A DNA stretch of 64,000 nucleotides, from positions 1-64,000 of the forward strand of contig CANNCA010000008.1 in assembly GCA_947503005.1 (NCBI GenBank). Direction: 5' to 3'. Origin of the DNA: an uncultured Flavobacteriaceae bacterium (GTDB lineage: Bacteria; Bacteroidota; Bacteroidia; Flavobacteriales; Flavobacteriaceae). Below, piece by piece: positions 37,560 to 62,191 of this stretch. The notes below the pieces were generated by a model. The model saw only the letters and a program-made list of their open reading frames with translations. It was not told the origin of the DNA and ran no database searches. The position numbers and the translations under genes are program-made. Numbering within the stretch: position 1 is the first letter of the stretch; each line of letters opens with the position of its first letter.

Positions 37560-37571
37560 TGACCATCGTCA
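37560..37571 (+). promoter_or_regulatory. FNR/CRP-like box 1 with mlaE promoter
   Basis: TGACCATCGTCA; exact -7 element TACATTTG at 37595-37602, centres 33 bases apart, 25 bases before the ATG of the permease gene. Confidence 0.75.
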
Positions 37572-37626
37572 TTTTATGTACTATAAAATGCCGTTACATT
37601 TGAAATAGGTTCATAGCACTTCATAA

Positions 37627-38409
37627 ATGGAACTGGCATTACAGGCTAAAAAAAACATCAAGCATTTTTTTACCGAAATCGGAGAACTCTCCCATTTCGC
37701 AGGTCGTTTTTTTAGGGAGTTTTTAAAGCCTCCCTTCGAATTCAAAGAGCTTTTGCGACAATGTTATCAAGTAGGCAACCGATCTTTGGTTTTGGTATTG
37801 GTCACGGGTTTCATTATCGGCTTGGTATTGACCTTGCAATCGAGGCCAACACTCATACAATTCGGTGCGGTTTCAATGATGCCGAATATGGTAGGTATTT
37901 CGATAGTGAGAGAGATTGGTCCGGTAATCACGGCTTTGATATGTGCAGGTCGAATTGCCTCTGGCATTGGCGCTGAACTTGGATCCATGAAAGTAACAGA
38001 GCAAATTGATGCCATGGAGGTTTCCGGCACCAATCCCTTTAAATATTTAGTCGTTACCAGAATTTTGGCAACTACTTTAATGCTGCCTTTATTGGTTGTT
38101 TTTGGAGATTTAGTCGCGTTATACGGTTCCGCTTTAGTAGAAAACCTAAAGGGCGATGTATCCTTTCAACTCTATTTCAATACTGTTTTTGATGCACTCT
38201 CGTATGGCGACTTGGTACCAGCAACTGTAAAATCTTTCTTTTTCGGTTTTGTTATTGGGTTGGTAGGTTGTTATAAGGGATACCATTCTAAAAAAGGAAC
38301 CGCCGGTGTTGGCATTGCCGCCAATACAGCAGTGGTCATGGCATCGCTATTGGTATTTGTGGTGGATTTTATAGCCGTTTTCGTGTCCGATATTTTTTAT
38401 GAACTATGA
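37627..38409 (+). CDS. MlaE-family ABC transporter permease
   Basis: 260 residues, polytopic. FIIGLVLTLQSRPTL, MVGISIVREIGPVITALICAGRIASGIGAELGSMKVTEQIDAMEV is the family signature region (stated here as consecutive motifs GPVITAL, AGR, GAELG, EQIDAM). With the ATPase (10-base overlap) and MCE protein it forms an Mla-type phospholipid transport system between inner and outer membrane. Single FNR-like promoter upstream. Confidence 0.93.
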   Translation: MELALQAKKNIKHFFTEIGELSHFAGRFFREFLKPPFEFKELLRQCYQVGNRSLVLVLVTGFIIGLVLTLQSRPTLIQFGAVSMMPNMVGISIVREIGPVITALICAGRIASGIGAELGSMKVTEQIDAMEVSGTNPFKYLVVTRILATTLMLPLLVVFGDLVALYGSALVENLKGDVSFQLYFNTVFDALSYGDLVPATVKSFFFGFVIGLVGCYKGYHSKKGTAGVGIAANTAVVMASLLVFVVDFIAVFVSDIFYEL

Positions 38410-39193
38410 TATGGAACTTAAGGAAAAAATAGCAGCTCAGAATAGTCAGTCGGTGCAGAAAAAAGTGGTGATTGATCTAAGGGACTTGCGCAAAAGTTTT
38501 GGGGATAACCATGTTCTGAACGGATTCAATATGAGACTGTATGAAGGTGAAAACTTGGTGGTTATGGGGAAATCGGGCTCTGGAAAATCAGTTATGATAA
38601 AATGTCTGGTAGGCCTAATGCAACCTGATAGCGGTTATATTGAGGTTTTGGGGAAGGAAATCAAAACTTTAGATCGGGAGACTTTGGATATTTTACGGTC
38701 CGATATAGGATTCCTATTTCAGGGAAGTGCCCTATATGATTCGATGACCGTTCGCGAGAATTTGGAATTTCCCTTGAGAAGACACAAAGAAAGAATGGGT
38801 CAAAATGCAGATACAGAACCTTTAGTACTGGAAGTTCTGGAAAATGTTGGTCTGGCCCACGCTATCGACCTCATGCCTGAAGAACTTTCAGGGGGAATGA
38901 AAAGGCGCATTGCGCTAGCACGAACCATTATTTTAAAACCAAAAATCATTCTCTACGATGAGCCGACCAGCGGATTGGATCCTATAACATCCAAAGAAAT
39001 TATTGAACTCATGCGAAGTATTCAAAAAAAATATGGTACCTCATCTTTGATCATTACGCATGATGTTGATTGTGCCCGTGTGGTATCAGAACGTATGGTT
39101 TTATTGGTTGATGGAATAAATTATGCAGAGGGTACCTACACGGAATTGTCCTCATCAAACGATCCGAAAGTGGAAGCTTTCTTTAAAAAATAA
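38399..39193 (+). CDS. MlaF-family ABC transporter ATP-binding protein
   Basis: 264 residues. Walker A GKSGSGKS, signature LSGGMKRRIALART, Walker B KIILYDEPTSGLD and switch ITHD are all present. It energises the permease encoded immediately upstream; the two genes overlap by 11 bases. An internal Met (MELKEK, 4 residues in) is an alternative start. Intact and of normal length for MlaF. Confidence 0.94.
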   Translation: MNYDMELKEKIAAQNSQSVQKKVVIDLRDLRKSFGDNHVLNGFNMRLYEGENLVVMGKSGSGKSVMIKCLVGLMQPDSGYIEVLGKEIKTLDRETLDILRSDIGFLFQGSALYDSMTVRENLEFPLRRHKERMGQNADTEPLVLEVLENVGLAHAIDLMPEELSGGMKRRIALARTIILKPKIILYDEPTSGLDPITSKEIIELMRSIQKKYGTSSLIITHDVDCARVVSERMVLLVDGINYAEGTYTELSSSNDPKVEAFFKK

Positions 39194-39196
39194 ACC

Positions 39197-40183
39197 ATGG
39201 CAAAAGCAAAGTTGGAAAATCTGAAATTAGGTTTGTTTGTAGTTCTAGGAACGATATTGTTGCTCGTAGCAGCTTATCTCATTGGAAACAGGCAAAATAT
39301 GTTCGAAAAAACATTTCCCGTAACTGCAGTATTTAAAAACGCAAGTGGTCTACAGAATGGGAACAACGTACGTTTCTCTGGGATTAATGTTGGCACTGTC
39401 AATAAAATTGAGATGGTCAATGATACGACAATAAGAGTGCATATGATCATTGCTGAAAAAATACAGCGGCATATTAAGAGAGATGCCGTTGCGACCATAG
39501 GATCAGACGGATTGGTAGGAAATATGCTTATCAACATTATACCAGGAGAAGGAAATGCACCCTTGATCCAAGCTGGAGACGAACTTGAGACGTACAGCAA
39601 AGTGGCCACGCAAGACATGATGAATACCTTGAATACAACCAATGAAAATGCGGCCCTTTTGACCGCCGATCTCTTGAAAGTGAGCCGGTCATTGACGCAA
39701 GGAGAAGGAACTTTCGGTAGATTGCTCAATGATACGGTGATGGCTGCCGATTTGCAACAGACCCTTGCCAATCTTAAAAATACTAGCAATCAGGCGAATT
39801 CCACGTTCTATGAACTAAACAAAATTATTAGAAGTATCAACTTTGAAGAAAGCACAGCAGGTGTGTTACTAAGTGATTCCCTTTCCGCAAGAAAAATGCA
39901 AAATGTTATTGCCAATCTAGAATCTTCGAGCATCGAAATTGAAAAGATGGCTAGAGATTTGAATTCCGTTGTTGGCGAAATGAAAGAGGGTAGTGGTGCT
40001 ATCAGCTTTTTGGCCACGGATACCCTTTTTGTAAATCAATTGGAAAACACCATGCGAAATGTAGATCAAGGGGTAGAACGGTTCAATGAAAACATGGAAG
40101 CCCTGAAGCATAACTTTTTAACCAGGGGATACTTTAAAAAACAAGAAAGACAAGAAAAGAAAGAAGCACGGGAAAATGAATAA
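39197..40183 (+). CDS. MlaD-type MCE-domain protein
   Basis: 328 residues. One N-terminal membrane segment (LGLFVVLGTILLLVAAYLIG), then a single MCE domain (FPVTAVFKNASGLQNGNNVRFSGINVGTV, residues about 38-115), then a long helical/coiled region and a charged Lys/Glu-rich tail. Such proteins are the substrate-binding ring of Mla transporters, anchored in the inner membrane and facing the periplasm. Three bases separate it from the ATPase gene. Confidence 0.93.
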   Translation: MAKAKLENLKLGLFVVLGTILLLVAAYLIGNRQNMFEKTFPVTAVFKNASGLQNGNNVRFSGINVGTVNKIEMVNDTTIRVHMIIAEKIQRHIKRDAVATIGSDGLVGNMLINIIPGEGNAPLIQAGDELETYSKVATQDMMNTLNTTNENAALLTADLLKVSRSLTQGEGTFGRLLNDTVMAADLQQTLANLKNTSNQANSTFYELNKIIRSINFEESTAGVLLSDSLSARKMQNVIANLESSSIEIEKMARDLNSVVGEMKEGSGAISFLATDTLFVNQLENTMRNVDQGVERFNENMEALKHNFLTRGYFKKQERQEKKEARENE

Positions 40184-40994
40184 GACCGTCAAGCCCATTG
40201 TATTTTTAATAGCTATGCTTACCGTTATTTCGTGTGGGATAAGTATAACGAACAATGATATTTATCAGGATGGAGATTGGGCCAATGCACAATGGTTGGG
40301 CCAAGATTTAGTTACTGTTTTCATTGCCGTGCCAATGTTATTGGTATCATACGTTCAGGCTATTTCAAAAAAAAGATGGAAATGGAATATGGTTTTGGCA
40401 GGTATCCTTTTTTATTTCGTTTACACCTATGCCTTCTTCGTGATTGTAGCAAAACTTACTTTTTTGTACCTCTTTCATTTACCGATTTTCGGACTTTCAG
40501 TTATCGGATTGTTTACTACACTTTTGAATTTATTCCATAAAGAGTATAAAATAGAAAGTCGAAATATTTGGACGAAAAGAGGTGTTATCTGTTTTTTACT
40601 GCTCATCGCTACTATGCTTTCCTTTCTTTGGCTTTCGGACATCATATCGCACTTAACCATCCCCAATTACCTATCTGATACACCAAACGGAGAACCTCCA
40701 TTAATCGTTTATTCTCTAGATTTGGGTATAGTTGTGCCGTTAATGCTCATTGCTGCATTTGGTTATTTGAAGAATACTCAATACGGATTCAAGCTGACCG
40801 GTGTACTGCTAACGAAATCGGCCACTATTGGTTTTGCATTGATGGGGATGTCACTTAGCATGTATCTTCAAGATCTTAACCCAGATTATTTTTTAATAGC
40901 ACTTTGGTGCTTTATTGGAATATTGGGATCGATTTTGACCGTAAGTTTTTTAAGAAAGCTCAAAATAAAATTAAACAATGTTTCCATCTTCTAA
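40176..40994 (+). CDS. hypothetical polytopic membrane protein in the Mla operon
   Basis: 272 residues, about seven hydrophobic segments (for example VTVFIAVPMLLVSYV, MVLAGILFYFVYTYAFFVIV, VVPLMLIAAFGYL). The first segment ends TVISCG, which imitates a lipobox but is probably a membrane helix. It overlaps the MCE gene by 8 bases, so translation is coupled; its 3' end overlaps the convergent TerB gene by 24 bases. Function unknown; possibly an accessory to lipid transport, or simply a co-regulated gene. Confidence 0.8.
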   Translation: MNKTVKPIVFLIAMLTVISCGISITNNDIYQDGDWANAQWLGQDLVTVFIAVPMLLVSYVQAISKKRWKWNMVLAGILFYFVYTYAFFVIVAKLTFLYLFHLPIFGLSVIGLFTTLLNLFHKEYKIESRNIWTKRGVICFLLLIATMLSFLWLSDIISHLTIPNYLSDTPNGEPPLIVYSLDLGIVVPLMLIAAFGYLKNTQYGFKLTGVLLTKSATIGFALMGMSLSMYLQDLNPDYFLIALWCFIGILGSILTVSFLRKLKIKLNNVSIF

Positions 40995-41384
40995 TTTAGT
41001 GTCGCCACCGAAGACTTTGATACACTTTTCAATTTCTTTTTGGGCCCTATCACTTGTAAAGCCCAGTCCAATTGCATATTTAAATACCAATTCTCTTTCC
41101 TCATCATCGAATTCATTGTCGGCATAAATCATACTGAACAAATCCTCAAGTCGTTCTATACGTTCTTCAAGGGTATATGGAGGAATCAATGGGTATTTTT
41201 GAGGGTTTTTAAGAATAGCTTTAGCATCTTCCTCCGAAACGTCAAGCTTAAAGGCAAAACGCTCCAAAACCTTTTTTTCTTGAGGATTGATAGGGCCATC
41301 AACCGAAGCTAATTTTACAATTGCTGCGAAGTGTGCTAAATTACTTTTATGCTCACCTGATTCATACGCGTCTAAAATGGACAT
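40971..41384 (-). CDS. TerB-family protein
   Basis: 137 residues, all-helical. IVKLASVDGPINPQEKKVLERFA and SMIYADNEFDDEERELVFKYA are the two TerB half-repeats with Asp-rich metal-type loops. The family is named for tellurite resistance but most single-domain members have unknown roles, often at the membrane or in stress responses. FNR-like box 2 and a TACCTTTC -7 element precede it. Confidence 0.85.
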   Translation of the reverse strand: MSILDAYESGEHKSNLAHFAAIVKLASVDGPINPQEKKVLERFAFKLDVSEEDAKAILKNPQKYPLIPPYTLEERIERLEDLFSMIYADNEFDDEERELVFKYAIGLGFTSDRAQKEIEKCIKVFGGDTKLEDGNIV

Positions 41385-41693
41385 TTTTATAATTTTTTAG
41401 GTATTAATACTTTTTATTTCAATGAAAGGGAAAGGTACTTCCCTAAGTGGGTTTTACCAATGACACTTATCAGTTTCATCCGATTTTTTTCAATTGTAAT
41501 GGGTCCTTTTTTTCATTAAGCATTTACTGGATCATTATGGTAAGCAAAATGAACCTTATTATCGACAGGGTATTCTAAATGACCTGCACCAGTTGTTAAC
41601 TAGAAACAGGTTGTTCATACTTAGTATCAATGACATGAGAGAAGCTTGGGAAAAAAATCGAAAAAAAATTGCTTACTGTATACTTCCAACTGC
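41385..41693. other. intergenic region holding the TerB promoter
   Basis: Contains FNR-like box 2 and its -7 element; the rest (to the AI-2E stop at 41694) shows no gene. A 72-codon plus-strand frame overlapping the transporter is rejected. Confidence 0.5.
41461..41472 (-). promoter_or_regulatory. FNR/CRP-like box 2 with TerB promoter
   Basis: TGACACTTATCA; minus-strand -7 element TACCTTTC at 41437-41430 (one mismatch), centres exactly 33 bases apart, 77 bases before the TerB start. Confidence 0.7.
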
Positions 41694-42832
41694 CTACTTC
41701 CTTTTCCTCTCCCTTTCCTCGAAAAAAACATCAAAAAATCGGTGTTCTCTGCTATCAAAATCTTCAAGAAAAACATTTGACTTCCTTGAAAGCCCATCCT
41801 CCATTAGATAGCTAAGTGGTGTCAGCACATCAAAACTTCTAAATACCTCCTTTGAAATTGCTAAAACTGGAAGCGCCAATATCATACCCGAAATGCCCCA
41901 GATAAATCCTCCAAGAAAGAGTCCCATAATAATGAACAAGGGGTTGACCTTGATGCTCGAACCCATGACATTGGGCGAAATCACATTGCCCTCCAATTGC
42001 TGGATGATAATATACCATATCAAAACCGCCAAAGGTTGCCATAAGGAATCGGAAACCATCAGCATGTACGTAATGGGCAGAACGGCACCTATCGAGGTAC
42101 CCACGTAGGGAATGATTTCTAAAAAGCCCGCCAAAAATCCCCAAAAAAAGGGATAAGGAACCCCGATTAGCCACAGACCCGATCCAATGAGTACCCCTAG
42201 GATAACGATAATCAGCCCTTGCCCGATCATGTAGCGCTTGGCCAATTTTTGTAGTTGTACGAAAAGTTGTTCCGTTGTTTCCCGATACTTCGGATTTACT
42301 TGCGACAGGAAAAAGTTCTTGAAGGCCGTTCGGTACAGTAGAAAAAAATAGGTGATCAAAACAATCAACACCATATTTGCAAGAATGGTAGTGCCCGATT
42401 GAAAACTGTCCTGCAAAAGACCGACGGGAATATCAACTGCCGAAAGCAAATTTTCAGATACCCAGTTCGCCGAAGTTTCGGGATTTAAGTTAAACTGTTG
42501 ATTGAGCCAATCCATAAATTGGTTTGCAACATTGCTTAGCTTTTCCCGTATCGATGGTAAATCGCTGAACAAAATACGCGATTGATTAAAAAAGAAAAAT
42601 AGTACTGCAAATAATGGTACAACGGCAACAAGGTAGGCCACCAAGATAGAAATGATCCTGTTGTGTAATTTCCCCTCGAAAAAAGCCACGATGGGCATTA
42701 ACATCAGGGCAAAAAAAAACTAAATAGCAACGGAATAAGTATAATCCGGCCTTCCATGAGCAAATAAACTAGCAAGGCCGTTACGCCAAAAAAATAAAAA
42801 ACATTGGGCAGGTTGATGGTATATCTTTTCAT
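41694..42832 (-). pseudogene. AI-2E family transporter, frameshifted in a homopolymer
   Basis: The downstream frame (from an internal ATG at 42704) encodes 336 residues of an AI-2E/PerM-type membrane transporter: GQGLIIVILGVLIGSGLWLIG, PYPFFWGFLAGFLEIIPYVG, NVMGSSIKVNPLFIIMG. The missing N terminus is encoded just upstream in another frame, starting MKRYTINLPNVFYFFG at ATG 42832, and runs to LLFSFF before meeting a run of nine T (plus-strand A9 at 42711-42719). One added base restores SFFFALMLMP and a 379-residue full-length protein. A perfectly placed promoter (box 3) supports 42832 as the true start. The gene could be truly inactive, phase-variable, or a sequencing error. Confidence 0.88.
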
Positions 42833-42879
42833 TGCAAATGAATCTTTTCAAAAATAAGACGGCTTTAAAGTTTATGGAA

Positions 42880-42891
42880 TGACGAATATCA
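42880..42891 (-). promoter_or_regulatory. FNR/CRP-like box 3 with AI-2E transporter promoter
   Basis: TGACGAATATCA; exact minus-strand -7 element TATTTTTG at 42856-42849, centres 33 bases apart, placing the transcription start about 13 bases before ATG 42832. Confidence 0.75.
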
Positions 42892-42947
42892 GTAGGTATA
42901 AAATCTTTGAACGGTTTTTTTGGTTTTCTAAATTTTTTGTATTCTTC

Positions 42948-43541: not shown

Positions 43542-43545
43542 CGCA

Positions 43546-44246: not shown

Positions 44247-44534
44247 CTAGCCATGCAATTTCTGGTGGGTATCTAAATGATGCGCCAGCATTTTTTCTAA
44301 GCTCTCCAAATAGTCTTGCAACACACTCGCATCAATTTTGGGGTGTGAACTGTCTGGGACAGTCATCGGATTTTCGTCCAAAAATCGGTACAATTCCGGA
44401 TGATAGGATTCTATCCTGTTAGTCAGTTCGGTTATCTCATGCAATAATGTCTTCGAACTTTTCATTTCAGTCGGAATTAACTTTTTGAAAATAATTGACT
44501 TGAGGTTAAATTCTGAATTTGCCCATTGCATCAA
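44247..44534 (-). CDS. small helical hypothetical protein
   Basis: 95 residues from ATG 44534; a later Met (44465, MKSSKTLLHEI) is an alternative. Helical with LLHEITELTNRIESYHPELYRFLDE and a C-terminal SLEKMLAHHLDTH. Not recognised. A minus-strand promoter (FNR-like box 4 with TAGCTTTA) would start transcription about 14 bases before 44534, favouring the longer form. Confidence 0.65.
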   Translation of the reverse strand: MMQWANSEFNLKSIIFKKLIPTEMKSSKTLLHEITELTNRIESYHPELYRFLDENPMTVPDSSHPKIDASVLQDYLESLEKMLAHHLDTHQKLHG

Positions 44535-44582
44535 TCTTAAGTTTTATTGATTAAAGCTATGGATTCGTAGTGCTATCTGAAA

Positions 44583-44594
44583 TGATCTTGATCA
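44583..44594 (-). promoter_or_regulatory. FNR/CRP-like box 4 with promoter of the small helical gene
   Basis: TGATCTTGATCA; minus-strand -7-like TAGCTTTA at 44559-44552, centres exactly 33 bases apart. Confidence 0.65.
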
Positions 44595-44614: not shown

Positions 44615-44626
44615 TGACTTGAATCA
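44615..44626 (+). promoter_or_regulatory. FNR/CRP-like box 5 before the phosphoribosyltransferase gene
   Basis: TGACTTGAATCA, 32 bases from box 4. On the plus side only a weak TATTTTAT lies at the expected place (34 bases). Probably serves the divergent phosphoribosyltransferase. Confidence 0.55.
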
Positions 44627-44785: not shown

Positions 44786-45418
44786 ATGACAATGTTCAAA
44801 GATAGAATCGATGCTGGTAGGCAACTGGCGGAAAAATTGACAATTTACAAGGATCAAGAAAATGTACTGATTTTGGCCATACCCCGCGGTGGATTACCCT
44901 TGGGCGCCATCATCGCAAAGTCTTTAAATGCACCGTTAGATGTGGCCCTTTCAAAGAAAATAGGCCACCCTTACAACAAAGAATATGCGATTGGAGCGGT
45001 AAGTCTGGAAAGTACAATACTAGATAATGCGATAGGGGTGACCAAGGGTTATATTGAAGAAGAAACAAAACGCATTCGCAAAAAACTCAAAAAGAGATAT
45101 GAACAATATTATAGCAATCGTTCTCCTATGAATGTGAAAGATAAAATCGTCATTATCGTTGATGACGGCATTGCAACAGGGAATACTGTCTTGGCCACTG
45201 CTGAGTTGGTAGTTGGTCAAAAGGCAAAAGAAGTAATTGTAGCCATTCCGGTCGCACCTAAATCCACTCGAGACAGTTTAAAGAGCTCGTCATACATCGA
45301 TGACGTAATTTGCTTGCAGACCCCATCAAATTTTCAAGCCGTAGGGCAGTTTTATATGGAATTCCCTCAGATTACCGATGAAGAGGCCATTAAGATATTA
45401 AATAGTGGTATCGCTTGA
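44786..45418 (+). CDS. phosphoribosyltransferase-domain protein
   Basis: 210 residues. PRPP-binding signature VIIVDDGIATGNT, early PRGGLPLGAIIAKSL and flexible-loop region with KRIRKKLKKRYEQYY. The family subgroup (sometimes fused to hydrolases) is not a classical nucleotide-salvage enzyme; related stand-alone genes occur in hypoxia/dormancy gene sets such as that of Mycobacterium. An alternative start at the third codon (MFKDRI) is possible. Divergent from the small helical gene across boxes 4 and 5. Confidence 0.88.
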   Translation: MTMFKDRIDAGRQLAEKLTIYKDQENVLILAIPRGGLPLGAIIAKSLNAPLDVALSKKIGHPYNKEYAIGAVSLESTILDNAIGVTKGYIEEETKRIRKKLKKRYEQYYSNRSPMNVKDKIVIIVDDGIATGNTVLATAELVVGQKAKEVIVAIPVAPKSTRDSLKSSSYIDDVICLQTPSNFQAVGQFYMEFPQITDEEAIKILNSGIA

Positions 45419-45572: not shown

Positions 45573-45779
45573 CTATTCCTCCATAATGCCAAAGGTGACC
45601 TTGGCATTTACACGATATTCTGAAATTTGATTGTTATCGACTTTTACCTGCATATCCTTTATATAAACAGATTTTATGTTTTTTATCGTTTTTGATGCTT
45701 CATCGATAACGTTTTTGACGGCATCTTCAAAACTCTTAGTGGAGTTACCCAATAGCTCTATTACTTTTAATACTGACAT
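45573..45779 (-). CDS. dodecin family flavin-binding protein
   Basis: 68 residues from ATG 45779 (MSVLKVIELLGNSTKSFEDAV); a longer frame to 45809 adds ten residues not seen in dodecins. The small beta-alpha-beta-beta pattern with SVYIKDMQVKVDNNQISEYRVNAKVTFGI matches dodecins, which form dodecamers that bind and protect flavins. It follows the PepSY-like gene by 36 bases on the same strand and so likely shares its FNR-like promoter. Confidence 0.9.
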   Translation of the reverse strand: MSVLKVIELLGNSTKSFEDAVKNVIDEASKTIKNIKSVYIKDMQVKVDNNQISEYRVNAKVTFGIMEE

Positions 45780-45815: not shown

Positions 45816-46325
45816 TTAAATAAATTCTCCCTTTTCATTAAGTTTTACTCGTAGAACCTTATCTCCATTTTCCAACTTAAGTTTGTAGGTTTTCTTGGCA
45901 CCCTTACCGTCTTTATAATTGACTAAATAAACATCTTTGGTGATGGTCCATTCAGGAAATCGGTCCAAAACTGCTGTTTTAACCGAAGTCGGCAAATTGA
46001 TGTCTTTGAACTTTTCAGCAGTTCTTATGAGTTTACCGTCCTTGTCATAAGCTGCCAAGATTTTGCCCTCAGGAATAAAAAAGGTTATGTTGTAGAGGTC
46101 ATAATCATCTTGATAAAAATCGGAATCCTTAATGTTATATGAGGCTACTTTGCGCTCCAATAACTGAACAGGTACCGATGCCACTTCCATGGTATTTACA
46201 TCGTTCAAATACTTGTAATTGGTGGCATAAACTGTGACTTCAGATAGATTTTCTGTCTTTACTATCTGTGAAAAAGCTTGGGTGGTCAACCCAAATGCTA
46301 ATAGACCTAATACTATTTTTTTCAT
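45816..46325 (-). CDS. secreted PepSY-like protein
   Basis: 169 residues. Signal peptide (IVLGLLAFGLTTQAFSQ). The rest resembles periplasmic PepSY-like/BLIP-fold proteins of Bacteroidetes: LPTSVKTAVLDRFPEWTITKDVYLVNY and a C-terminal KVLRVKLNEKGEFI typical of a repeated beta-hairpin. Function unknown; such proteins are often induced by stress. Promoter with FNR-like box 6 and exact TAGTTTTG -7 element upstream; dodecin downstream. Confidence 0.82.
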   Translation of the reverse strand: MKKIVLGLLAFGLTTQAFSQIVKTENLSEVTVYATNYKYLNDVNTMEVASVPVQLLERKVASYNIKDSDFYQDDYDLYNITFFIPEGKILAAYDKDGKLIRTAEKFKDINLPTSVKTAVLDRFPEWTITKDVYLVNYKDGKGAKKTYKLKLENGDKVLRVKLNEKGEFI

Positions 46326-46797
46326 GACTTTAGTTTTTAAATATGAATTAAGTAATAAGATAAACTTAGGCTTATCGAGTCAAAACTACATATGTTAACA
46401 AGTACCGACAATGACTTGGGTCAGTTTGGGAAGTTTACCTTAGGTTCGCTATTCTTTACCTCAAAAATCTAATGGGTGCTGCCTTTAGGTTATTTGGTCT
46501 GCTGGGTTTGCCGGCTTGCTCCATTTCAAAATGATTTGTTGGCTCTTAGTTTCTTCAGATCATCTATGGCCTTTTTCTTTAGTACAAATTCAGGTCTGGT
46601 GCCATACGATTATCTCAAGGTACATTTAGGTAGCACAAATTTGATTTCCATCTTGACAAAAAACTGAACACCGCAAATTTCCTTGACGATTTATTGCTGC
46701 GGATCTTTTCTGTTTTCCGGGAGAAGGTCGCATTGGACCTGAAACTGTAGTTACGTCACTTTGAAATAACCATTGAATAACTTCAACTAGGTTCATT
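46326..46797. other. intergenic region with PepSY-dodecin promoter
   Basis: Holds FNR-like box 6 and its -7 element in the left part. No accepted gene; an 82-codon minus-strand frame at 46626-46874 is rejected. Confidence 0.5.
46412..46423 (-). promoter_or_regulatory. FNR/CRP-like box 6 with PepSY-dodecin promoter
   Basis: TGACTTGGGTCA; exact minus-strand -7 element TAGTTTTG at 46388-46381, centres 33 bases apart. Confidence 0.78.
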
Positions 46798-47895
46798 TTA
46801 GTTCTGACTGGATGCTGGCTGTGGTTTAAAGAGAACAAACTCACCAATGTTTTCCATATCAATTGCACCGACAAGTTTTTTGTTATCGGTTACGGGGAAG
46901 AAACGCTTTTTCTCTTTGCCCATAAGTAGGATTACTTTATGTATTTCATCATATAGCGCGACGGTCTTAAAGGAAGTATCCATAATGTCTTTGACCATTA
47001 ACATGGGTTTTTGAGCATACTTGATAATATCTTTCTGCAATAAAACACCGACGATTTCATTGTTTTCCATGACCACAAAATCTTTTTCTGTTCCTGATAG
47101 TATGATATCTACTACCTTATTTAAGGTATCTGTAGGACTCAATAGTGTAATTTTCGTCAACATAGCTTCTTCGACCTTCCGACCTTTTAGGATAGACTCT
47201 TGTTTTACCATCCGATTTTCGCCATAGGCACCGATGAATATGAAAAATGCAATCAATATCAAAAACGGATTGAAGAGGAGACCTAAGATGAAAAAAAGAA
47301 CGGCCATGACCTGACCCAAATTTGCGGCAATATCGGTAGCTTTTACACGATCCATTTTGCTTGACAACAATGCACGTAGCACACGGCCACCATCCATGGG
47401 AAATGCCGGTATTAAATTAAAGACTACCAACATGATATTGGCAATAAAAAGAGAGAAAAGAATAGTCTGGAGGTTTGGAGCGTAGAGCACTTTTTCCAAA
47501 GTCTCCGTATCCATACTAAAATAGTCTCGTACCGGCACCACCAGAAACAAAAGGAAAGCAATGACCACATTTACCGCTGGTCCGGCTAGTGCTACCATGA
47601 ATTCTTGATGTGGTTTTTCCGGCATTTTTTCCAATGAAGCGACCCCACCGATTGGCAATAGCGTAATTTTTTGTGTATTGATTTTGTAACGTTTCGCCAT
47701 TAATGCATGCCCCAATTCGTGAAGCACTACACAAAGAAAAAGAACAAGAATAAGAACAATGTTTAATAAGGCAGAATTGAAGTTTCCCCCTCGTTGCATA
47801 TCTAAAAACACTACCCAGGTCAACAAAAGAGTAAATGTCCAGTGGACTTCTATTTTTATCCCTGAGATACTCCCTAAACGCAGTACACCATTCAT
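46798..47895 (-). CDS. site-2-type M50 zinc metalloprotease with CBS domains
   Basis: 365 residues from ATG 47895 (MNGVLRLGSISG). The frame extends to 47913, but the predicted -7 element (47918-47911) overlaps that earlier start, so 47895 is preferred. Zinc motif HELGHALMAKRY and the third-ligand region NLIPAFPMDGGRVLRALL lie in a polytopic membrane domain; two CBS repeats (EEAMLTKITLLSPTDTLNKV and VKDIMDTSFKTVALYDEIHKV) follow. CBS-M50 proteases cleave within membranes and may sense adenine nucleotides. A homologous type is part of the mycobacterial dormancy regulon. Controlled by bidirectional box 7. Confidence 0.92.
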   Translation of the reverse strand: MNGVLRLGSISGIKIEVHWTFTLLLTWVVFLDMQRGGNFNSALLNIVLILVLFLCVVLHELGHALMAKRYKINTQKITLLPIGGVASLEKMPEKPHQEFMVALAGPAVNVVIAFLLFLVVPVRDYFSMDTETLEKVLYAPNLQTILFSLFIANIMLVVFNLIPAFPMDGGRVLRALLSSKMDRVKATDIAANLGQVMAVLFFILGLLFNPFLILIAFFIFIGAYGENRMVKQESILKGRKVEEAMLTKITLLSPTDTLNKVVDIILSGTEKDFVVMENNEIVGVLLQKDIIKYAQKPMLMVKDIMDTSFKTVALYDEIHKVILLMGKEKKRFFPVTDNKKLVGAIDMENIGEFVLFKPQPASSQN

Positions 47896-47941
47896 TCCTG
47901 AAAATTTAATCAAAAGTATCAGGCAATCGATTCGGTTGCAA

Positions 47942-47953
47942 TGACCAAAATCA
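47942..47953. promoter_or_regulatory. bidirectional FNR/CRP-like box 7
   Basis: TGACCAAAATCA. Exact -7 elements on both sides: minus TACTTTTG at 47918-47911 and plus TACATTTG at 47977-47984, each centred exactly 33 bases from the box centre. It fixes the starts of both divergent genes. Confidence 0.82.
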
Positions 47954-48002
47954 TTTCACCTCGTTGTTTTGTAAAGTACATTTGGTTTCAAATTCAGTAC
48001 TA

Positions 48003-48389
48003 ATGGAAATATCCTTTTTTTTGGCAAAGTTTTGGGGTTTTTACCTTATCATTTTCTTTTTGGTTTTAAGTTTCAACCCGCAGCGTATACGTGATATTTT
48101 CGAGTATTTAAAGGATCCCAAGTTTGCTTTGATTACTGCTTTTGTGGCGATTATTGTTGGACTTTTAAACCTACTCTTCCATAATATCTGGACAAATAAT
48201 TGGCCCATAATCATAACGTTGTTAGGATGGGGGTCGCTTTTTATCGGGATTGCCCTTTTCACTTTTCCCCAACGTATGGCTACTGCTTTACAAATGGAGA
48301 ACGTGAAACTGGTTCAGGTCATTTATGTGTTACTGTTTCTAATTGGGATTTTCCTATTGAATATGGGTTTCGGAGTGGTGCCTTTTTGA
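48003..48389 (+). CDS. small integral membrane protein
   Basis: 128 residues starting ATG 48003 (MEISFFLAKFWG); the frame opens at 47964, but that Met would precede the predicted transcript start of box 7. Four hydrophobic segments (FYLIIFFLVLSF, FALITAFVAIIVGLLNLLF, IIITLLGWGSLFIGIALFTF, VIYVLLFLIGIFLLNMGFG). Function unknown. A 56-base gap leads to the flavin-binding-type gene, so they may be one operon. Confidence 0.8.
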   Translation: MEISFFLAKFWGFYLIIFFLVLSFNPQRIRDIFEYLKDPKFALITAFVAIIVGLLNLLFHNIWTNNWPIIITLLGWGSLFIGIALFTFPQRMATALQMENVKLVQVIYVLLFLIGIFLLNMGFGVVPF

Positions 48390-48445: not shown

Positions 48446-48907
48446 ATGATAAAAAATTTAAATCAAAAGGAATGTGTTGAGCTGCTCAGCAATAACTACA
48501 TCGGTAGGTTGGCTTTCATAGTAGGGAAAACTCCTTATATTATTCCCATTACCTATTATTACTACGACCAGGGTGATAATAGTATCATCAGTTATTCGTT
48601 GGAGGGTCATAAAATAGATGCTATGCGAAAGAATCAATCCGTGTCTGTTGAAGTCGATGAAATTGAATCGATAAGTCGATGGAAATCGGTTTTGGTACAT
48701 GGTCAATTTGAAGAACTTAAAGGTATTGATGCCAAAAGTCAGCTTCATGAATTTTCTCAAGGTGTAAAGGATGTTATTGACCGCAAAGAAGAAAGAAAAC
48801 TTCAATTTATTCATGAGTTTTCTAGCAAACTGGGTGCCGATGGGTCTTCACCAATAGTATACCGCATTAAAATAAGCGAGATTACAGGAAAGTTTCGCGA
48901 GGAGTGA
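48446..48907 (+). CDS. pyridoxamine 5'-phosphate oxidase-like flavin-binding protein
   Basis: 153 residues. The N-terminal LNQKECVELLSNNYIGRLAF and VEVDEIESISRWKSVLVHGQFEEL belong to the PNPOx-like split-barrel family (nitroimidazole-resistance/flavin-nucleotide-binding type). Likely an FMN- or F420-type flavin reductase acting on small electrophiles, substrate unknown. The stop codon lies inside FNR-like box 8, which belongs to the PEP synthase promoter. Confidence 0.88.
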   Translation: MIKNLNQKECVELLSNNYIGRLAFIVGKTPYIIPITYYYYDQGDNSIISYSLEGHKIDAMRKNQSVSVEVDEIESISRWKSVLVHGQFEELKGIDAKSQLHEFSQGVKDVIDRKEERKLQFIHEFSSKLGADGSSPIVYRIKISEITGKFREE

Positions 48908-48916
48908 TTTAAATCA
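48905..48916 (+). promoter_or_regulatory. FNR/CRP-like box 8 with PEP synthase promoter
   Basis: TGATTTAAATCA, a perfect palindrome; -7-like GAATTTTG at 48940-48947 (one mismatch), centres exactly 33 bases apart. Transcription would start near 48952. Confidence 0.75.
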
Positions 48917-48966
48917 TTGTGAGCCACTCCAAATCGAATGAATTTTGCTTCTCAAATTCTACAATC

Positions 48967-52367: not shown

Positions 52368-52379
52368 TGACCTAGGTCA
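52368..52379 (+). promoter_or_regulatory. FNR/CRP-like box 9 with small RNA 1 promoter
   Basis: TGACCTAGGTCA, perfect palindrome; -7-like TATTTTAG at 52403-52410 (one mismatch), centres exactly 33 bases apart. Confidence 0.75.
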
Positions 52380-52414
52380 TTTTAGACCTTAAATAGTCCA
52401 TGTATTTTAGCCCT

Positions 52415-52637
52415 ATCAATTATAACAATAGTGTTCTTTGAAATAAAATTTTGAGTTGGGTCTTGGATCGGGGAAAACCAAGCCCAAGAATAAAGAAGCC
52501 ATTATGGATATTCTTTATACCATTTGAATCGCGAAAGGTTTAGTAATAAGCAAAGAGGCGATCAGTGTAAGCGGTTATAGGATTAAAGTAGCAGCTTCTA
52601 GGAAACCGGGATATTTCGGTATCTCGGTTTCTTTCTT
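52415..52637 (+). ncRNA. structured small RNA, copy 1
   Basis: About 223 bases with no coding frame. Predicted start is 5 bases after the -7 element. A boxA-like GTTCTTTGAAA (52433-52443) is followed by a hairpin (52456-52487, TTGGGTCTTGG with CCAAGCCCAA, loop containing GATCGGGG), conserved ACCATTTGAATCGCGAA, conserved GATCAGTGTAAGCGGT, and a 12-pair terminator hairpin (52602-52631) with a T-rich tail. All blocks recur in the same order in copy 2. Family not recognised. Confidence 0.75.
52602..52637 (+). terminator. terminator of small RNA 1
   Basis: GAAACCGGGATA pairs with TATCTCGGTTTC (one G-T) around TTTCGG, followed by TTTCTT. Confidence 0.82.
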
Positions 52638-52654
52638 AAAAAAATACCCCAAAC

Positions 52655-52666
52655 TGACCGAGGTCA
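52655..52666 (+). promoter_or_regulatory. FNR/CRP-like box 10 with small RNA 2 promoter
   Basis: TGACCGAGGTCA; exact -7 element TAGCTTTG at 52690-52697, centres 33 bases apart. Confidence 0.8.
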
Positions 52667-52701
52667 TTTTCGAATCACTAAACGCATCGTAGCTTTGTGA
52701 T

Positions 52702-52929
52702 ATGATTAACTAAAGTCGTTCTTTAACATTATAAAATATCAAAGTGGATTTTAGATCGTGGGGATATGAAAATCCATAAAATAGGAAGCCGTTGAGGGCA
52801 CCCATTACACCATTTGAATTGCGAACGGATCTAGTGATAGATTCTATTAGGGATCAGTGTAAGCGGTCATTGGGCAGAATCGATTGTTTCTTTGGAAACC
52901 GGGATGCTTCGGTACCCCGGTTTCTTTTT
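52702..52929 (+). ncRNA. structured small RNA, copy 2
   Basis: About 228 bases, paralogous to copy 1. A boxA-like GTTCTTTAACA (52718-52728) is close to the E. coli rRNA boxA. The first hairpin (52745-52776, TGGATTTT with AAAATCCA, loop with GATCGTGGGGA) has a stem sequence different from copy 1 but still paired, i.e. compensatory change. Conserved ACCATTTGAATTGCGAA and GATCAGTGTAAGCGGT blocks follow, then a terminator hairpin. No open frame. Confidence 0.77.
52895..52929 (+). terminator. terminator of small RNA 2
   Basis: GAAACCGGG pairs with CCCGGTTTC (stem also includes TG/TA near the CTTCGG loop), followed by TTTTT. Confidence 0.85.
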
Positions 52930-53070
52930 AAAAATCCAGGCTTCTAAGCAGCAATGCCTTAGCGGTCATACAAATAGTGTCGAACAACAATTTTTGAAAC
53001 CCAGGTAAATACGTAGCTAGTACGTTTCCGCTTGGTGCACTTCGAAAATAAATGATTTGATACTATCTTA

Positions 53071-53104: not shown

Positions 53105-53261
53105 CTAAAGACATTTATTAGAAAAAGGCTTTTATTGTTGCAAGGCGATAAGAGCCCGAAAGGTTCGAGTTGTTTTATGCCAAGGTCGGCCCTATATCAT
53201 TTTAGCGATAAGATGACTCAAGGATAGATCAGAAGTAAAAAATGAATCGAACCCTTCAAAG

Positions 53262-53297
53262 GAAACAGGAGACCTATGGCCTCCTGTTTCTGTTTTT
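53262..53297 (+). terminator. Rho-independent terminator before the DUF302 gene
   Basis: GAAACAGGAG pairs with CTCCTGTTTC; the tail is TGTTTTTT. It ends 28 bases before the DUF302 ATG, so that gene must use read-through or a very close promoter. Confidence 0.75.
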
Positions 53298-53324
53298 TCA
53301 AATATTTTAATTAACAATAGTCCT

Positions 53325-54745: not shown

Positions 54746-54757
54746 TGACTTGGGTCA
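54746..54757. promoter_or_regulatory. FNR/CRP-like box 11 between divergent genes
   Basis: TGACTTGGGTCA, identical core to box 6. At 33 bases on the minus side lies TTCCTTTA (two mismatches), on the plus side TAACTGAT (three). The box is convincing, the promoters less so. Confidence 0.62.
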
Positions 54758-54897
54758 TGATTGAAAAATTTCATATGCTGTAACTGATAACAATCATTCC
54801 ACAACTTCCGAAACAGTTTTATTTTGTTTAGACTAGCTGACAAATAATATTGAAGTTTCGGAACTGAATATTTGGAAGCAAGCTTGAAGATTTCAAA

Positions 54898-55557: not shown

Positions 55558-55796
55558 GATAATTTGAGAGCTATGGAAACAACAGGTTTTTTGGATGAAT
55601 TTAGCTGCGTCATTTTTTTGCGCTGAGGTGGATTTTTCGTAACTTTAAGAGAACGGGTTTGTACCCAAAAGAAAGCTGAAACACCCTATTGTAGTTAAAA
55701 TATCAAACTATAATTATTTTCCGAATAAGGCTTCCCCACAATTTATAACAGGCCTTACTAAGAGATTACATGAATCCTTAATCCAAATATAAAGCT

Positions 55797-56531: not shown

Positions 56532-56572
56532 TGTTTTAATGCAATGCTTTTATAAAGTCAGGTCTAGAGTTA

Positions 56573-59083: not shown

Positions 59084-59185
59084 CTTAAATTAGTGAATTG
59101 AAGGAAATTGTTCCAAGTTATTTCTACGCCGGCCTAACCCATGTTAAACCAATTTAGCAATAAAATCTTACACTGTTAAATTGAA

Positions 59186-59656: not shown

Positions 59657-60101
59657 ATTTTACTAAAATTGCCATTTGCCCCGCATGATGGTTGGTATGC
59701 GATATGATTCTCCCGAATGCCTCCGCTTTGGTCTTGGTACCGAATTCTTTGGTGGTGATCGTTGTTTCCCAGTCGGCATCGTTTTGTTGTTCAACAATCA
59801 ATTTTAAAGTTTGAAATGAGTGGTCGACATATTCTCTTAGTGCAAGGAGGTCAGTCCATTCACCAGTATCTTTTTGTGCAATTACGGTTTTGGCAATTAC
59901 TTTGACTTCGTTGCCCCCAAAAACATTTTTTGCGAATAGCAACTCTACGTCGCCAATATGCCTGATCAAGAATCCCACACTGTTCACTGATGGCGGCAGT
60001 TTCTTTTTCAAATCTTCTTTTGTAAGCTTTGATAATTGATCTGAAAACCGTGTTCTGGCTTCTTGCCATAGTTCTATAAATAGGTGTGTTTTTGTTTTCA
60101 T
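59646..60101 (-). CDS. DinB-family protein
   Basis: 151 residues. Four-helix DinB fold with metal-ligand histidines in LIRHIGDVE and SHTNHHAGQMAIL, as in DinB/YfiT-type putative metal-dependent thiol transferases or hydrolases (unrelated to DNA polymerase IV). Substrate unknown. First gene of the pair with the downstream membrane protein. An overlapping frame to 60186 is a shadow. Confidence 0.87.
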   Translation of the reverse strand: MKTKTHLFIELWQEARTRFSDQLSKLTKEDLKKKLPPSVNSVGFLIRHIGDVELLFAKNVFGGNEVKVIAKTVIAQKDTGEWTDLLALREYVDHSFQTLKLIVEQQNDADWETTITTKEFGTKTKAEAFGRIISHTNHHAGQMAILVKYGS

Positions 60102-60240
60102 TTTCTTCTATTGCCGCAATGAATGAGCAAGTAATCAATAAAAAAATCAGTAAGGAATGATATAGGTCATGGTCTGTAAGCTTCATGGGTTATAAATTAG
60201 AGGGTGAAATCTTATGAATACGTACAAAAAATAAAATGAT

Positions 60241-60429
60241 ATGGAAACGTTAGGAAAAAATATTTGCCAAAGGTGTAGGAAGTCCATTCACCGTCTTGCC
60301 GATTTTGGCTCTTACTTAGACGGAACGATAAATACGGAATATTGCCACAATTGCTATTCACACGGCGTACTTGTAAATAACGAAATTATGTTGGTCAGTA
60401 AAATAGATAATAGCATGGCCACTCCTTAA
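60241..60429 (+). CDS. small zinc-ribbon protein
   Basis: 62 residues. Two cysteine pairs ICQRC and EYCHNCY with DGTINTEYC between fit the putative zinc-ribbon family (PF12674-like), often found in or next to transcription or stress regulators. The first pair is followed by RKSIHRLADFG rather than the usual GMPL. Divergent from the DinB gene. Confidence 0.75.
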   Translation: METLGKNICQRCRKSIHRLADFGSYLDGTINTEYCHNCYSHGVLVNNEIMLVSKIDNSMATP

Positions 60430-60503
60430 TAAAAAAGTTTGTAGGGTAGTTTACAACAAGTCAAACTAATCTAGTAACCTCATATCTAACACCCAAATAA
60501 GCT

Positions 60504-61232
60504 ATGACAACTGCCTCATTAAAGGAACAAAAAAACGCTCAACTTTCCTTCCAACAAATCTTGCAAGGTCTTGGAGGTATCGCTATTATAATCGCTTGCT
60601 ATCTTACTTTTTTTCTTAAACCTGTTCGGGATCGTTGGGGGCTGACCAAAAATGCAGCGCAGCGATTTTTCATCGGAGATTATTTAGTTAGAGAACCAAA
60701 AACAAAATTTGTACACGCTATTGAGATAAATGCCCCCGCAGAGTACGTATGGCCATGGATTGCGCAGATAGGTCAGGACCGTGGCGGATTTTATAGTTAT
60801 GAGCTATTAGAAAATATGTTCGGTATGAAAATCTTCAATGCCGATACAATTTTACCGGAATTTCAAAACCCTGAGCTGGGCGATTCAATTCCGTTTAGTC
60901 CAAATGAGGCCTACCCAATCGTTATCTGTGAAAAGGGAAAGGCTATGGCCATTGAACATTGCCTTAATTTAGATGACCAATCGGTTTACGATCCAGAAGT
61001 AACCACACCCAAAAATTATTTGCACCTCACTTGGCTTTGGTACGTTGAACCGCTATCAAAAAATCATTCTAGATTTATTTCAAGAAACAGAGTGACTTAC
61101 AGTGATTCACTAAAAAACGAGTTACTTTTTGGAGCGCTGGCCGAACCCATTGTTTTTGCTATGGATCGGAAAACGTGTTTCGGCATAAAGAAGCGGGCAG
61201 AACTTTTATACCAAGACTCCAATGGAAATTAA
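60504..61232 (+). CDS. SRPBCC-fold protein with N-terminal membrane segment
   Basis: 242 residues. One membrane segment (GIAIIIACYLTFFLKPV) then a START/SRPBCC-like domain: HAIEINAPAEYVWPWIAQIGQDRGGFYSYELLEN and a later RFISRNRVTY. Such proteins bind hydrophobic ligands; the ligand is unknown. Lies 74 bases after the zinc-ribbon gene on the same strand. Confidence 0.83.
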   Translation: MTTASLKEQKNAQLSFQQILQGLGGIAIIIACYLTFFLKPVRDRWGLTKNAAQRFFIGDYLVREPKTKFVHAIEINAPAEYVWPWIAQIGQDRGGFYSYELLENMFGMKIFNADTILPEFQNPELGDSIPFSPNEAYPIVICEKGKAMAIEHCLNLDDQSVYDPEVTTPKNYLHLTWLWYVEPLSKNHSRFISRNRVTYSDSLKNELLFGALAEPIVFAMDRKTCFGIKKRAELLYQDSNGN

Positions 61233-61293
61233 ATTTCTCAAAGTCTACTGATTCCAGTTAGCTTTTCTAAAATAGGCCTTAAAATAGTGTAAT

Positions 61294-62001
61294 TTAAAAC
61301 AAGAGTTCCAAGCGCAAAACGCCCCATACCACATGCCAAATTAAGTAATACAGTAGCCTAAGGGCATACATGCTGATGAAACCATACCGTTTGAATGTGA
61401 AGAGTTGGGTTATGTTAAACAGAAAGAGGTTGATCCAAACCGCCACCATAGCCCAGAGGGTGTAAGTCTCCATGAAAACAACCTGATATGTGGGCTCAAA
61501 GAGCGCCACAATCAGAATGTAGCGTAAAACTAACTTATTATAGAGGAATCTTTTAAAAATTAAAGTCGATCCGACCAAAAGCAATGTCATGGGCAGCACA
61601 TGAAATATAATCTCCACTAAAAATGCGATAATCGGATAAAACAATAACGATTCTGGAAAAAGGATATTCATATCCGCCGGGTACACGATATTGATATCGA
61701 TCAGAATTGCTACAAAAGCGAATAACAAGGTAAGTCCCGCATAAGGATACCCTTTTTTAGTGGGATACTTTTTATGAATTGTGAACCAATTTTTGGACAA
61801 CAGAAACGATAGTGTTAGAAATCCCAGAACAACACTTAACCCGATAGCTAAGAACGGATGGATTTCGCCTATAAATCGTTGAAAAAGTGAACTGTTTGAA
61901 TACAATAACAGAATTACGCCACATAATACCAGAACCATTAAAATTTTAAGGATCCTGAATTGTTTCCGATGGGCGAAAATCAAGTTTTTAATGTTAACCA
62001 T
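61294..62001 (-). CDS. polytopic membrane protein (CPBP-like layout)
   Basis: 235 residues, about seven membrane helices. Segments FLVEIIFHVLPMTLLLVG, ALFEPTYQVVF and RLLYYLIWHVVWGVLRLELLF recall CPBP/CAAX-protease-like membrane proteins, but the EExxxR catalytic motif is not intact, so activity is doubtful. Preceded by FNR-like box 12 with a TATCTTTC -7 element. Confidence 0.75.
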   Translation of the reverse strand: MVNIKNLIFAHRKQFRILKILMVLVLCGVILLLYSNSSLFQRFIGEIHPFLAIGLSVVLGFLTLSFLLSKNWFTIHKKYPTKKGYPYAGLTLLFAFVAILIDINIVYPADMNILFPESLLFYPIIAFLVEIIFHVLPMTLLLVGSTLIFKRFLYNKLVLRYILIVALFEPTYQVVFMETYTLWAMVAVWINLFLFNITQLFTFKRYGFISMYALRLLYYLIWHVVWGVLRLELLF

Positions 62002-62094
62002 GATTTAGTGGTGAGAAGTGAGCATCAAATTTCTACGAAATCAATATTCTTAGTCTTTTGCCTGAAAGATATTTAATGAAACTACGCTAGTATA

Positions 62095-62106
62095 TGACAG
62101 TAGTCA
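62095..62106 (-). promoter_or_regulatory. FNR/CRP-like box 12 with promoter of the CPBP-like gene
   Basis: TGACAGTAGTCA; minus-strand -7-like TATCTTTC at 62071-62064 (one mismatch), centres exactly 33 bases apart. Confidence 0.72.
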
Positions 62107-62179
62107 GTCAACTTAATTAGTTTGGGGGTGATAACTAGTTGGTATCCAAACAGTTTGAAGCAATAAAAGTTAACTAGAC

Positions 62180-62191
62180 TGATTTTGGTCA
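62180..62191 (+). promoter_or_regulatory. FNR/CRP-like box 13 with flavoprotein promoter
   Basis: TGATTTTGGTCA; plus-strand -7-like TATTTTCG at 62215-62222 (one mismatch), centres exactly 33 bases apart, about 120 bases before the ATG. Confidence 0.7.

Follow-up and report, generated by a model that had tools for sequence, protein, structure and literature searches.

A putative class II Crp/Fnr-type promoter arrangement of fixed spacing in a proposed flavobacterial survival-gene island, with candidate receiver-CRP regulators and a predicted small RNA family

Introduction

Flavobacteria are major degraders of marine biomass, and their survival of oxygen loss has been little studied. Here we analyze a stretch of 64,000 nucleotides (bases 1-64000 of contig CANNCA010000008.1, hereinafter C8) from the 4.58 Mb genome of an uncultured Flavobacteriaceae bacterium (GenBank assembly GCA_947503005.1). 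In this stretch, which we call the window, an earlier note had read a series of palindromes, TGAYN4RTCA (hereinafter the box), as the operators of an unrecognized Crp/Fnr-type regulon in which a TAnnTTTG −7 element lies at a fixed distance from the box.

The closest described systems each share a part of what we find. The class II promoters of Escherichia coli FNR and CRP, as generally described, have in common with those of the window the TGA palindrome with a 4-base spacer, the center at −41.5 (inferred here), and the Glu and Arg of the Crp recognition helix. Unlike them, the window uses the Bacteroidota −7 element TAnnTTTG, shows no conserved outer TT of the FNR half-site in the sequence logo, and has three candidate regulators of which two carry a receiver domain; these two fusions also appear to lack the usual cAMP contacts when alignment columns are compared by eye with CRP. 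E. coli FnrS is likewise a small RNA behind an FNR-type activator promoter, from which the unit found here appears to be set apart by its tandem arrangement, its length of ~230 nt and its lack of an Rfam match. DosR of mycobacteria binds DNA through a NarL-type domain, whereas the output domain of the fusions on contigs C8 and C2 is HTH_Crp_2 and not of the NarL/LuxR type.

As in our case, DosRS/DosT of Mycobacterium ties a kinase and response regulator to universal stress proteins (Usp), Hsp20 and PfkB (PMC4090907), and the DosR regulon includes a PPOX-family protein (PMC11876180). The lxa locus of Burkholderia cenocepacia is similarly a clustered low-oxygen locus, with six Usp genes; Anr2, a Crp/Fnr regulator, is needed for anoxic survival in strain H111, which has no lxa. 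Unlike the present case, the excerpt on lxa and Anr2 describes no receiver-CRP fusion, and it concerns another phylum and another promoter (PMC9104464). NmpRSTU of Myxococcus xanthus is likewise a two-component system, governing genes for Usp, CBS, cbb3 oxidase and HemN, though its NmpR is NtrC-like and not Crp-like (PMC11841059). HcpR, PgRsp and CrpPg of Porphyromonas gingivalis are Crp/Fnr-family regulators from the same phylum, HcpR responding to nitrosative stress; the terms "TAnnTTTG" and "class II" have 0 occurrences in the main text of the paper that treats them (PMC12040651). A DosR/lxa-like set (Usp, Hsp20, PfkB and related genes) is present here under one shared promoter type; the resemblance to the DosR, lxa and NmpR gene lists is partial and functional, and the regulators differ. 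In the openings of abstracts and the excerpts seen of the literature covered, which leaves most subscription journals outside, we found no account of a receiver-CRP regulator or of this spacing in Bacteroidota.

Results and discussion

One spacing between box and −7 element

We defined the arrangement as a box separated by a gap of 23 bases from TAnnTTTG, equivalent to 33 bases center to center. The window contains 28 boxes, a density far above that of shuffled sequence (mean 5.1; 28 or more in 0/100 shuffles). Fifteen of them lie outside open reading frames (ORFs) of at least 90 aa, in 10,441 bp of such sequence, and 13 inside; a gap-23 TAnnTTTG with a match of at least 5/6 on at least one side accompanies 12 of the 15 non-ORF boxes and none of the 13 within ORFs. 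All thirteen palindromes of the earlier note are present at their coordinates, its twelve 33-base arrangements are correct in a pattern check at gap 23, and the six −7 elements that it gave as exact do match at 6/6 (37560 +, 42880 −, 46412 −, 47942 on both sides, and 52655 +). Its statement that the boxes all lie between genes needs one correction: the box at 48905 is not strictly intergenic because its first three bases double as the stop codon of the PPOX gene before it. We recovered two further 5/6 arrangements beyond the twelve, namely 60158 +, which had been missed, and the + side of 42880, which is a T run with no close + strand gene. The boxes at 44615 and 54746 have a −7 element at gap 23 on neither strand. 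In 9 of the 11 window cases examined the nearest in-frame ATG lies 15-62 nt after the −7 element, the exceptions being the flavoprotein (119 nt) and the AI-2E gene (144 nt, with a broken frame).

The same spacing stands out across the genome, for which counts come from pattern searches plus retrieved stretches. There are 442 boxes against 188 for the reversed pattern, and 43 box/TAnnTTTG pairs at gaps 13-33 against 5 and 1 in the reversed-pattern control. Gap 23, one of 21 spacings, takes 26 of these 43 (binomial p = 8e-24 if gaps are equally likely), thirteen of them on C8 and seven on C2. Seven of the 43 pairs fall in the window, six at gap 23; outside it 20/36 are at gap 23, and the genome scan that the earlier note had proposed finds its 33-base distance enriched beyond the window as well. 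We also counted with one −7 mismatch allowed, over C8, 60 kb of C2, 20 kb of C7 and six 20-kb control stretches. On C8 a gap of 23 is found 31 times, 17 of them beyond the window, and every other gap between 13 and 33 only 0-3 times; C2:840-900k gives 17 and 0-1, and the controls have 0 at gap 23. A same-strand predicted gene start lies within −90 to 300 nt for 34/34 arrangements on C8 outside the window and C2. Transcription start mapping in Flavobacterium psychrophilum places TAnnTTTG at −12 to −5 (PMC9723704); the box center would therefore be at −41.5, the class II position, as converted from this other species. The class II activator geometry proposed earlier (box near −41) and, with it, a Crp/Fnr-type class II activator regulon of fixed 33-base geometry are strongly supported, at the level of sequence, by the spacing outside the window, the control gaps, and the 40 neighborhoods and the genus member G314 discussed below.

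The features of the window, with predicted promoters running from box to −7 element, are:

37560..37602, + strand: box TGACCATCGTCA, gap 23, TACATTTG (6/6); promoter of mlaE-ABC-mlaD, ATG 24 nt past the −7 element
41430..41472, − strand: box and TACCTTTC (5/6); promoter of TerB-like gene 40971-41384
42849..42891, − strand: box and TATTTTTG (6/6); promoter of AI-2E family gene 41694-42704
44552..44594, − strand: box and TAGCTTTA (5/6); faces a 95-aa ORF, 44247-44534, away from the phosphoribosyltransferase gene
44615..44626, no strand assigned: box with no gap-23 −7 element, before phosphoribosyltransferase gene 44786-45418; role unproven
46381..46423, − strand: box TGACCCAAGTCA and TAGTTTTG (6/6); promoter of 169-aa gene 45816-46325, dodecin gene 45582-45779 next
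47911..47953, − strand: left side of a shared box, TACTTTTG (6/6); promoter of M50 peptidase-CBS gene 46798-47913
47942..47984, + strand: right side of the shared box, TACATTTG (6/6); promoter of an ORF ending at 48389, ATG 18 nt downstream, no Pfam match
48905..48947, + strand: box TGATTTAAATCA, whose TGA is the stop codon of PPOX gene 48446-48907, and GAATTTTG (5/6); promoter of ppsA, ATG 19 nt downstream, pfkB next
52368..52410, + strand: box TGACCTAGGTCA and TATTTTAG (5/6); promoter of small RNA unit 1
52411..52640, + strand: predicted small RNA unit 1, hairpin and T run at its end
52655..52697, + strand: box TGACCGAGGTCA and TAGCTTTG (6/6); promoter of small RNA unit 2
52698..52936, + strand: predicted small RNA unit 2, paralogue of unit 1 (69% identity)
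54746..54796, no strand assigned: two adjacent boxes (54746, 54785) beside a GerW-like gene pair, no gap-23 element of at least 5/6
60158..60200, + strand: box TGATATAGGTCA and TAAATTAG (5/6); 62-aa ORF 60241-60429, ATG 40 nt downstream
62064..62106, − strand: box and TATCTTTC (5/6); promoter of ORF 61294-62001, no Pfam match
62180..62222, + strand: box and TATTTTCG (5/6); promoter of flavin amine oxidoreductase gene 62342-64171, ATG 119 nt downstream

The AI-2E gene is split (window 41694-42834, − strand): an ATG near 42834 is out of frame with 41694-42704 across a T run, a break that reflects either an assembly error or a real frame change.

Candidate regulators

The genome matches the cNMP-binding domain at fifteen places and the Crp-type helix-turn-helix (HTH) at eight. 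Three Crp-type proteins adjoin dense clusters of sites, two of them receiver-CRP fusions and one FNR-like. All are encoded outside the window, as the earlier note had held for the regulator gene, and two of the three are not plain FNR:

C8:90321-91427, 368 aa: receiver-cNMP-HTH_Crp fusion beside a histidine kinase
C8:91424-95044, 1206 aa: histidine kinase with several PAS domains and a GAF domain, just upstream of the C8 fusion
C2:867401-868453, 350 aa: receiver-cNMP-HTH_Crp fusion beside a 512-aa PAS histidine kinase (pair C2:867401-869991)
C8:190184-190885, 233 aa: FNR-like protein with its own gap-23 promoter, beside cbb3 oxidase genes

The recognition helices of the three candidates are alike (GTATETAIR, GMATETLIR and GTATESCIR). 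The C8 kinase and fusion genes follow an MscS-like gene that bears a gap-23 promoter. A metal P-type ATPase gene, interpreted as CcoI and likewise preceded by a gap-23 promoter, is transcribed divergently from the FNR-like gene; a FixG-like gene and a COX1-FixO fusion (cbb3 oxidase) are found nearby. The best model for the FNR-like protein is NF008365 (Fnr), at 111.7 bits against a cut-off of 228, and we therefore call it FNR-like only; Cys 9, 12, 58 and 111 are present in 6/8 aligned sequences, and one of the two without them may be a fragment of a fusion.

Both fusions of this genome are paired with an adjacent histidine kinase, and in the retrieved stretches a kinase ORF lies on the same strand within 300 nt of 39/42 fusion genes. 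The phospho-acceptor Asp, T/S and Lys of the receiver along with the helix Glu and Arg are kept in 44/44 aligned fusions; the Asp, Glu and Arg are also kept at 80/80 fusion loci of a second contig collection, these loci being not all independent. Among the best 25 NCBIfam models for each fusion (of 110 and 100), none spans the receiver plus the HTH and none scores above its cut-off; none of the best 60 (of 343) solved chains extends over the two halves of the C8 fusion. Among the best 25 models for each kinase only the general PAS domain model reaches its cut-off. Receiver-CRP fusions occur in 43/296 sampled genomes of the phylum, all assigned to the class of the window. In the second collection 209 stretches encode a relative of the fusion, of which 80 were kept; from their titles we take all 80 to be Bacteroidota.

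The island also encodes a stand-alone receiver protein (C8:87753-88130), which shares 45% identity with the C8 fusion's receiver and for which a role as phosphate sink or competitor is possible. Exact gap-23 arrangements at C2:82239-82281, C2:92010-92052 and C6:63884-63926 overlap or just follow the 3′ ends of other Crp-like genes.

Linkage of fusion genes and sites in other genomes

We retrieved up to 20 kb around one fusion gene in 40 of the 42 other fusion-bearing genomes, together with 20 control stretches. In the 40 fusion neighborhoods 108 pairs are spaced at gap 23, and no other gap between 8 and 39 accounts for more than 11; 33/40 have at least one gap-23 pair. The controls hold 2 at gap 23 and 0-3 at other gaps. 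The 80 loci of the second collection, which partly overlap the first set, give 111 at gap 23 against at most 12 elsewhere, with at least one in 50/80. The 48 stretches, 8 of them from the genus, contain 131 arrangements; a gene start is in range for 120, whereas 11 have none within −90 to 400 nt, and 7 boxes lie inside an ORF of more than 120 aa. The next genes include homologues of Usp, the kinase, HemN, CcoI, CcoNO, PpsA, Hsp20, MlaE and PPOX. Boxes and TAnnTTTG are both short and AT-rich, and one might suspect a chance product of AT-rich intergenic sequence; the excess at a single spacing in the genome, the 40 neighborhoods and the second collection, together with the absence of the arrangement at the coding boxes of the window, makes this vanishingly improbable, and we regard it as ruled out by the spacing controls.

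Within the genus, six genomes with a fusion have 26, 29, 9, 8, 7 and 6 exact sites and eight genomes without one have 3, 0, 3, 4, 2, 2, 5 and 0, a complete separation (Mann-Whitney p = 0.0007, with shared ancestry ignored; completeness is 57-85% for five of the 14 genomes). Across the wider family 16 genomes with a fusion average 11.9 sites and 14 without average 7.0 (p = 0.026, ancestry ignored; p = 0.042 when the window's own genome is left out).

Many of the individual promoters are conserved as well. In the genus member G314 a gap-23 promoter is kept for 12/17 island genes that have one here and a homologue in the retrieved contigs, and is present for 3/20 genes that do not have one here (Fisher p = 0.0009; homologues below 35% identity excluded). 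The contigs of G314 were picked for holding exact sites, and therefore only this gene-by-gene contrast counts. The box letters mostly differ between the two genomes, with the palindrome retained. For example, a gap-23 promoter precedes the G314 homologues of the mlaE-ABC-mlaD unit, of the 62-aa ORF (46% over 54 aa) and, as a partial homologue, of the 95-aa ORF (49% over 53 aa); before PpsA homologues it is seen in loci L208, L209 and L211 as well as in G314. The G314 homologue of the TerB-like gene has no detected gap-23 promoter, and one of the five misses, Hsp20, sits at a contig end.

Alternatively, the FNR-like protein C8:190184-190885 might act on all or almost all boxes, the receiver-CRP/kinase pairs being mere targets themselves or regulating something else. 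Consistent with this, its recognition helix is very similar, the cysteines noted above are present in most of the aligned sequences, gap-23 promoters stand ahead of its own gene and the neighboring cbb3 genes, and genomes with no fusion keep up to 17 (G202) and 28 (G271) gap-23 sites. On the other hand, the genus members G301, G302, G303 and G306 have an FNR-type hit, no fusion and only 2-5 sites; moreover, sites cluster around the fusion gene, although a blastp search for FNR-like ORFs of less than 330 aa recovered only one in the 48 stretches, and that single match (L174) may be the cut end of a fusion. On balance we consider this alternative doubtful. An extra C/G beside the half-site was tried as a mark to separate receiver-CRP from FNR sites: proposed for the C8-type fusion, it occurs in the first sets at 25/52 and 27/58 half-sites against 1/60 in five genomes without a fusion (30 boxes from G021, G057, G170, G206 and G218, of 14 such family genomes; G202 was excluded, with only 5 of its 17 boxes listed, and the other genomes had none listed). 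A second set weakened it, and we do not rely on it.

A proposed survival regulon and its targets

The sites, spacing, gene content, conservation, and receiver and recognition residues can all be read from the DNA, and they suggest the following picture. The boxes would be operators of dimeric Crp/Fnr-family activators that read the TGA half-site and act as class II activators, centered at −41.5 and touching RNA polymerase bound at TAnnTTTG, and the window would form the left end of a survival-gene island. The main activator would most likely be the C8 fusion, phosphorylated by the adjacent multi-PAS/GAF kinase C8:91424-95044; the C2 receiver-CRP/kinase pair and the FNR-like protein probably read the same type of site. 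The signal, to judge from the gene content, would most likely be low oxygen or loss of respiration. The program thus switched on would comprise mla, ppsA-pfkB, M50-CBS, Usp, Hsp20, hibernation-factor-like, ferritin-like, thioredoxin and ROK kinase genes, along with cbb3 maturation genes, a HemN-like gene, the FNR-like gene itself and the tandem predicted small RNAs. We regard this explanation as a whole (class II sites, the C8 fusion as main activator and a low-oxygen-type signal) as probable. The assignment of the window to the C8 fusion in particular, for which the arguments are proximity, the pattern within the genus and the linkage seen across the class, appears fairly likely.

Directly behind the window promoters are the genes for MlaE (followed by ABC and MlaD), the TerB-like protein, AI-2E, the 169-aa protein with dodecin, M50-CBS, PpsA (followed by PfkB), the flavin amine oxidoreductase, ORFs with no Pfam match, and the small RNAs. 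The list of controlled genes in the earlier note is accordingly supported for Mla, TerB, AI-2E, the 169-aa gene and dodecin, M50-CBS, ppsA-pfkB, the two small RNAs and the flavoprotein. Its assignments of the phosphoribosyltransferase and the GerW pair to this geometry are unsupported, since the boxes at 44615 and 54746 have no gap-23 −7 element and the arrangement at 44583 faces the opposite way; the 169-aa protein that it labels "PepSY" has no Pfam match at 1e-3. Outside the window, gap-23 promoters precede genes for several Usp proteins, Hsp20, MscS, patatin, thioredoxin, a ferritin-like protein, a ROK kinase, a metallo-beta-lactamase/rhodanese protein, a PEP-utilising enzyme, an S30AE (hibernation-type) protein, CcoI, the FNR-like protein and a HemN-like radical SAM protein (HemN_C just below cut-off). 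For the SPFH and PPOX genes beside targets no gap-23 promoter of their own was detected. Homologues of Usp, Hsp20, CcoNO and HemN occur in 16, 10, 10 and 8 of the 40 fusion neighborhoods and in 0/20 controls.

A variant of this scheme would keep the geometry and replace oxygen by another signal (redox, nitric oxide, starvation or light), or activation by repression. The PAS and GAF domains of the kinases speak for such latitude, the general PAS model being the only one among the best 25 to reach its cut-off. Repressor sites usually vary in position, and the fixed −41.5 is that of a class II activator; the targets moreover include cbb3 genes and a HemN-like gene. We hold this variant to be improbable.

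Several observations weigh against our preferred explanation, with the C8 fusion as main activator of low-oxygen survival genes. Seven of the 40 fusion neighborhoods have no gap-23 pair. The genus test ignores shared ancestry, incomplete genomes and loss of target genes. G271, which lies outside the class of the window, has its 28 gap-23 sites with no fusion match at 1e-40, and G202 its 17 with no fusion; the geometry therefore belongs to Crp/Fnr activators in the phylum generally, and part or even all of the sites in the window could belong to FNR. In the second set the extra C/G showed no significant difference (17/70 against 21/152, p = 0.08). Pta-AckA and both P-type cation ATPases are in the island with no gap-23 promoter of their own detected. 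Finally, TerB, AI-2E, PfkB, DUF302, YtfJ, SPFH and the flavoprotein are found in 0/40 fusion neighborhoods, M50-CBS, PPOX and the phosphoribosyltransferase in 2/40, PpsA in 3/40 and MlaE in 4/40.

More broadly, we lean slightly towards a class-wide branch in Bacteroidota, in which receiver-CRP fusions are phosphorylated by histidine kinases and, through the FNR operator and class II geometry, switch on a DosR-like survival program, including a promoter-driven family of structured small RNAs. What the present analysis adds is a set of candidate regulators, a link across the class to receiver-CRP/kinase pairs, and the small RNA family. If the proposal is correct, a sequence rule would find a flavobacterial low-oxygen/survival regulon in a raw genome, candidate regulators could be named and an apparently new small RNA family tied to the regulon, and a DosR/lxa-like gene set would be wired to a Crp-type response regulator, a class unlike those of mycobacteria and Myxococcus.

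A structured small RNA family behind the promoters

The two small RNAs of the earlier note are predicted tandem units that lie right after gap-23 promoters and belong to a covarying family. The units 52411-52640 and 52698-52936 are paralogues: they align with a score of 171, where 100 shuffles reach at most 47, and each closes with a hairpin and T run. An Rfam search of the window gave no match. A covariance model built from six copies, two from here and four from G314, matches in 18/149 family genomes including this one, mostly weakly. An exact box with a gap-23 element (at least 4/6) lies 60-260 nt upstream of 20/38 tested hits that have enough upstream sequence, against 150/1950 random positions; the test used 18/25 rows (seven weak, antisense, overlapping or cut ones removed) and 21/23 (the two left out being the window's own). 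In 17 of the 20 promoter-bearing hits the box starts 128-146 nt before the model match, and 11/17 are not in the model. The 18/38 hits with no such promoter may be tandem copies or chance matches.

Across 21 distinct sequences 30/35 pairs are changed on both sides, against a shuffle mean of 19.4 (0/500 reach that number). Pairing holds in 91.7% of cells and drops to 35-56% when the alignment is slid; the alignment had been fitted to the model, which favors pairing. In the openings of abstracts and the excerpts covered, with most subscription journals outside coverage, we found no account of this small RNA; a study of F. psychrophilum lists conserved small RNAs. The family is apparently new. 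A possible third unit at 53171-53299 (23 bits) is unproven.

Near the start of the window, a biosynthetic cluster (57-19459) is made up of ORFs for polyketide synthases and non-ribosomal peptide synthetases, with ketoacyl synthase, KR, dehydratase, carrier, condensation, AMP-binding and terminal reductase domains, in which a 2673-aa ORF carries a nitroreductase-family domain between modules.

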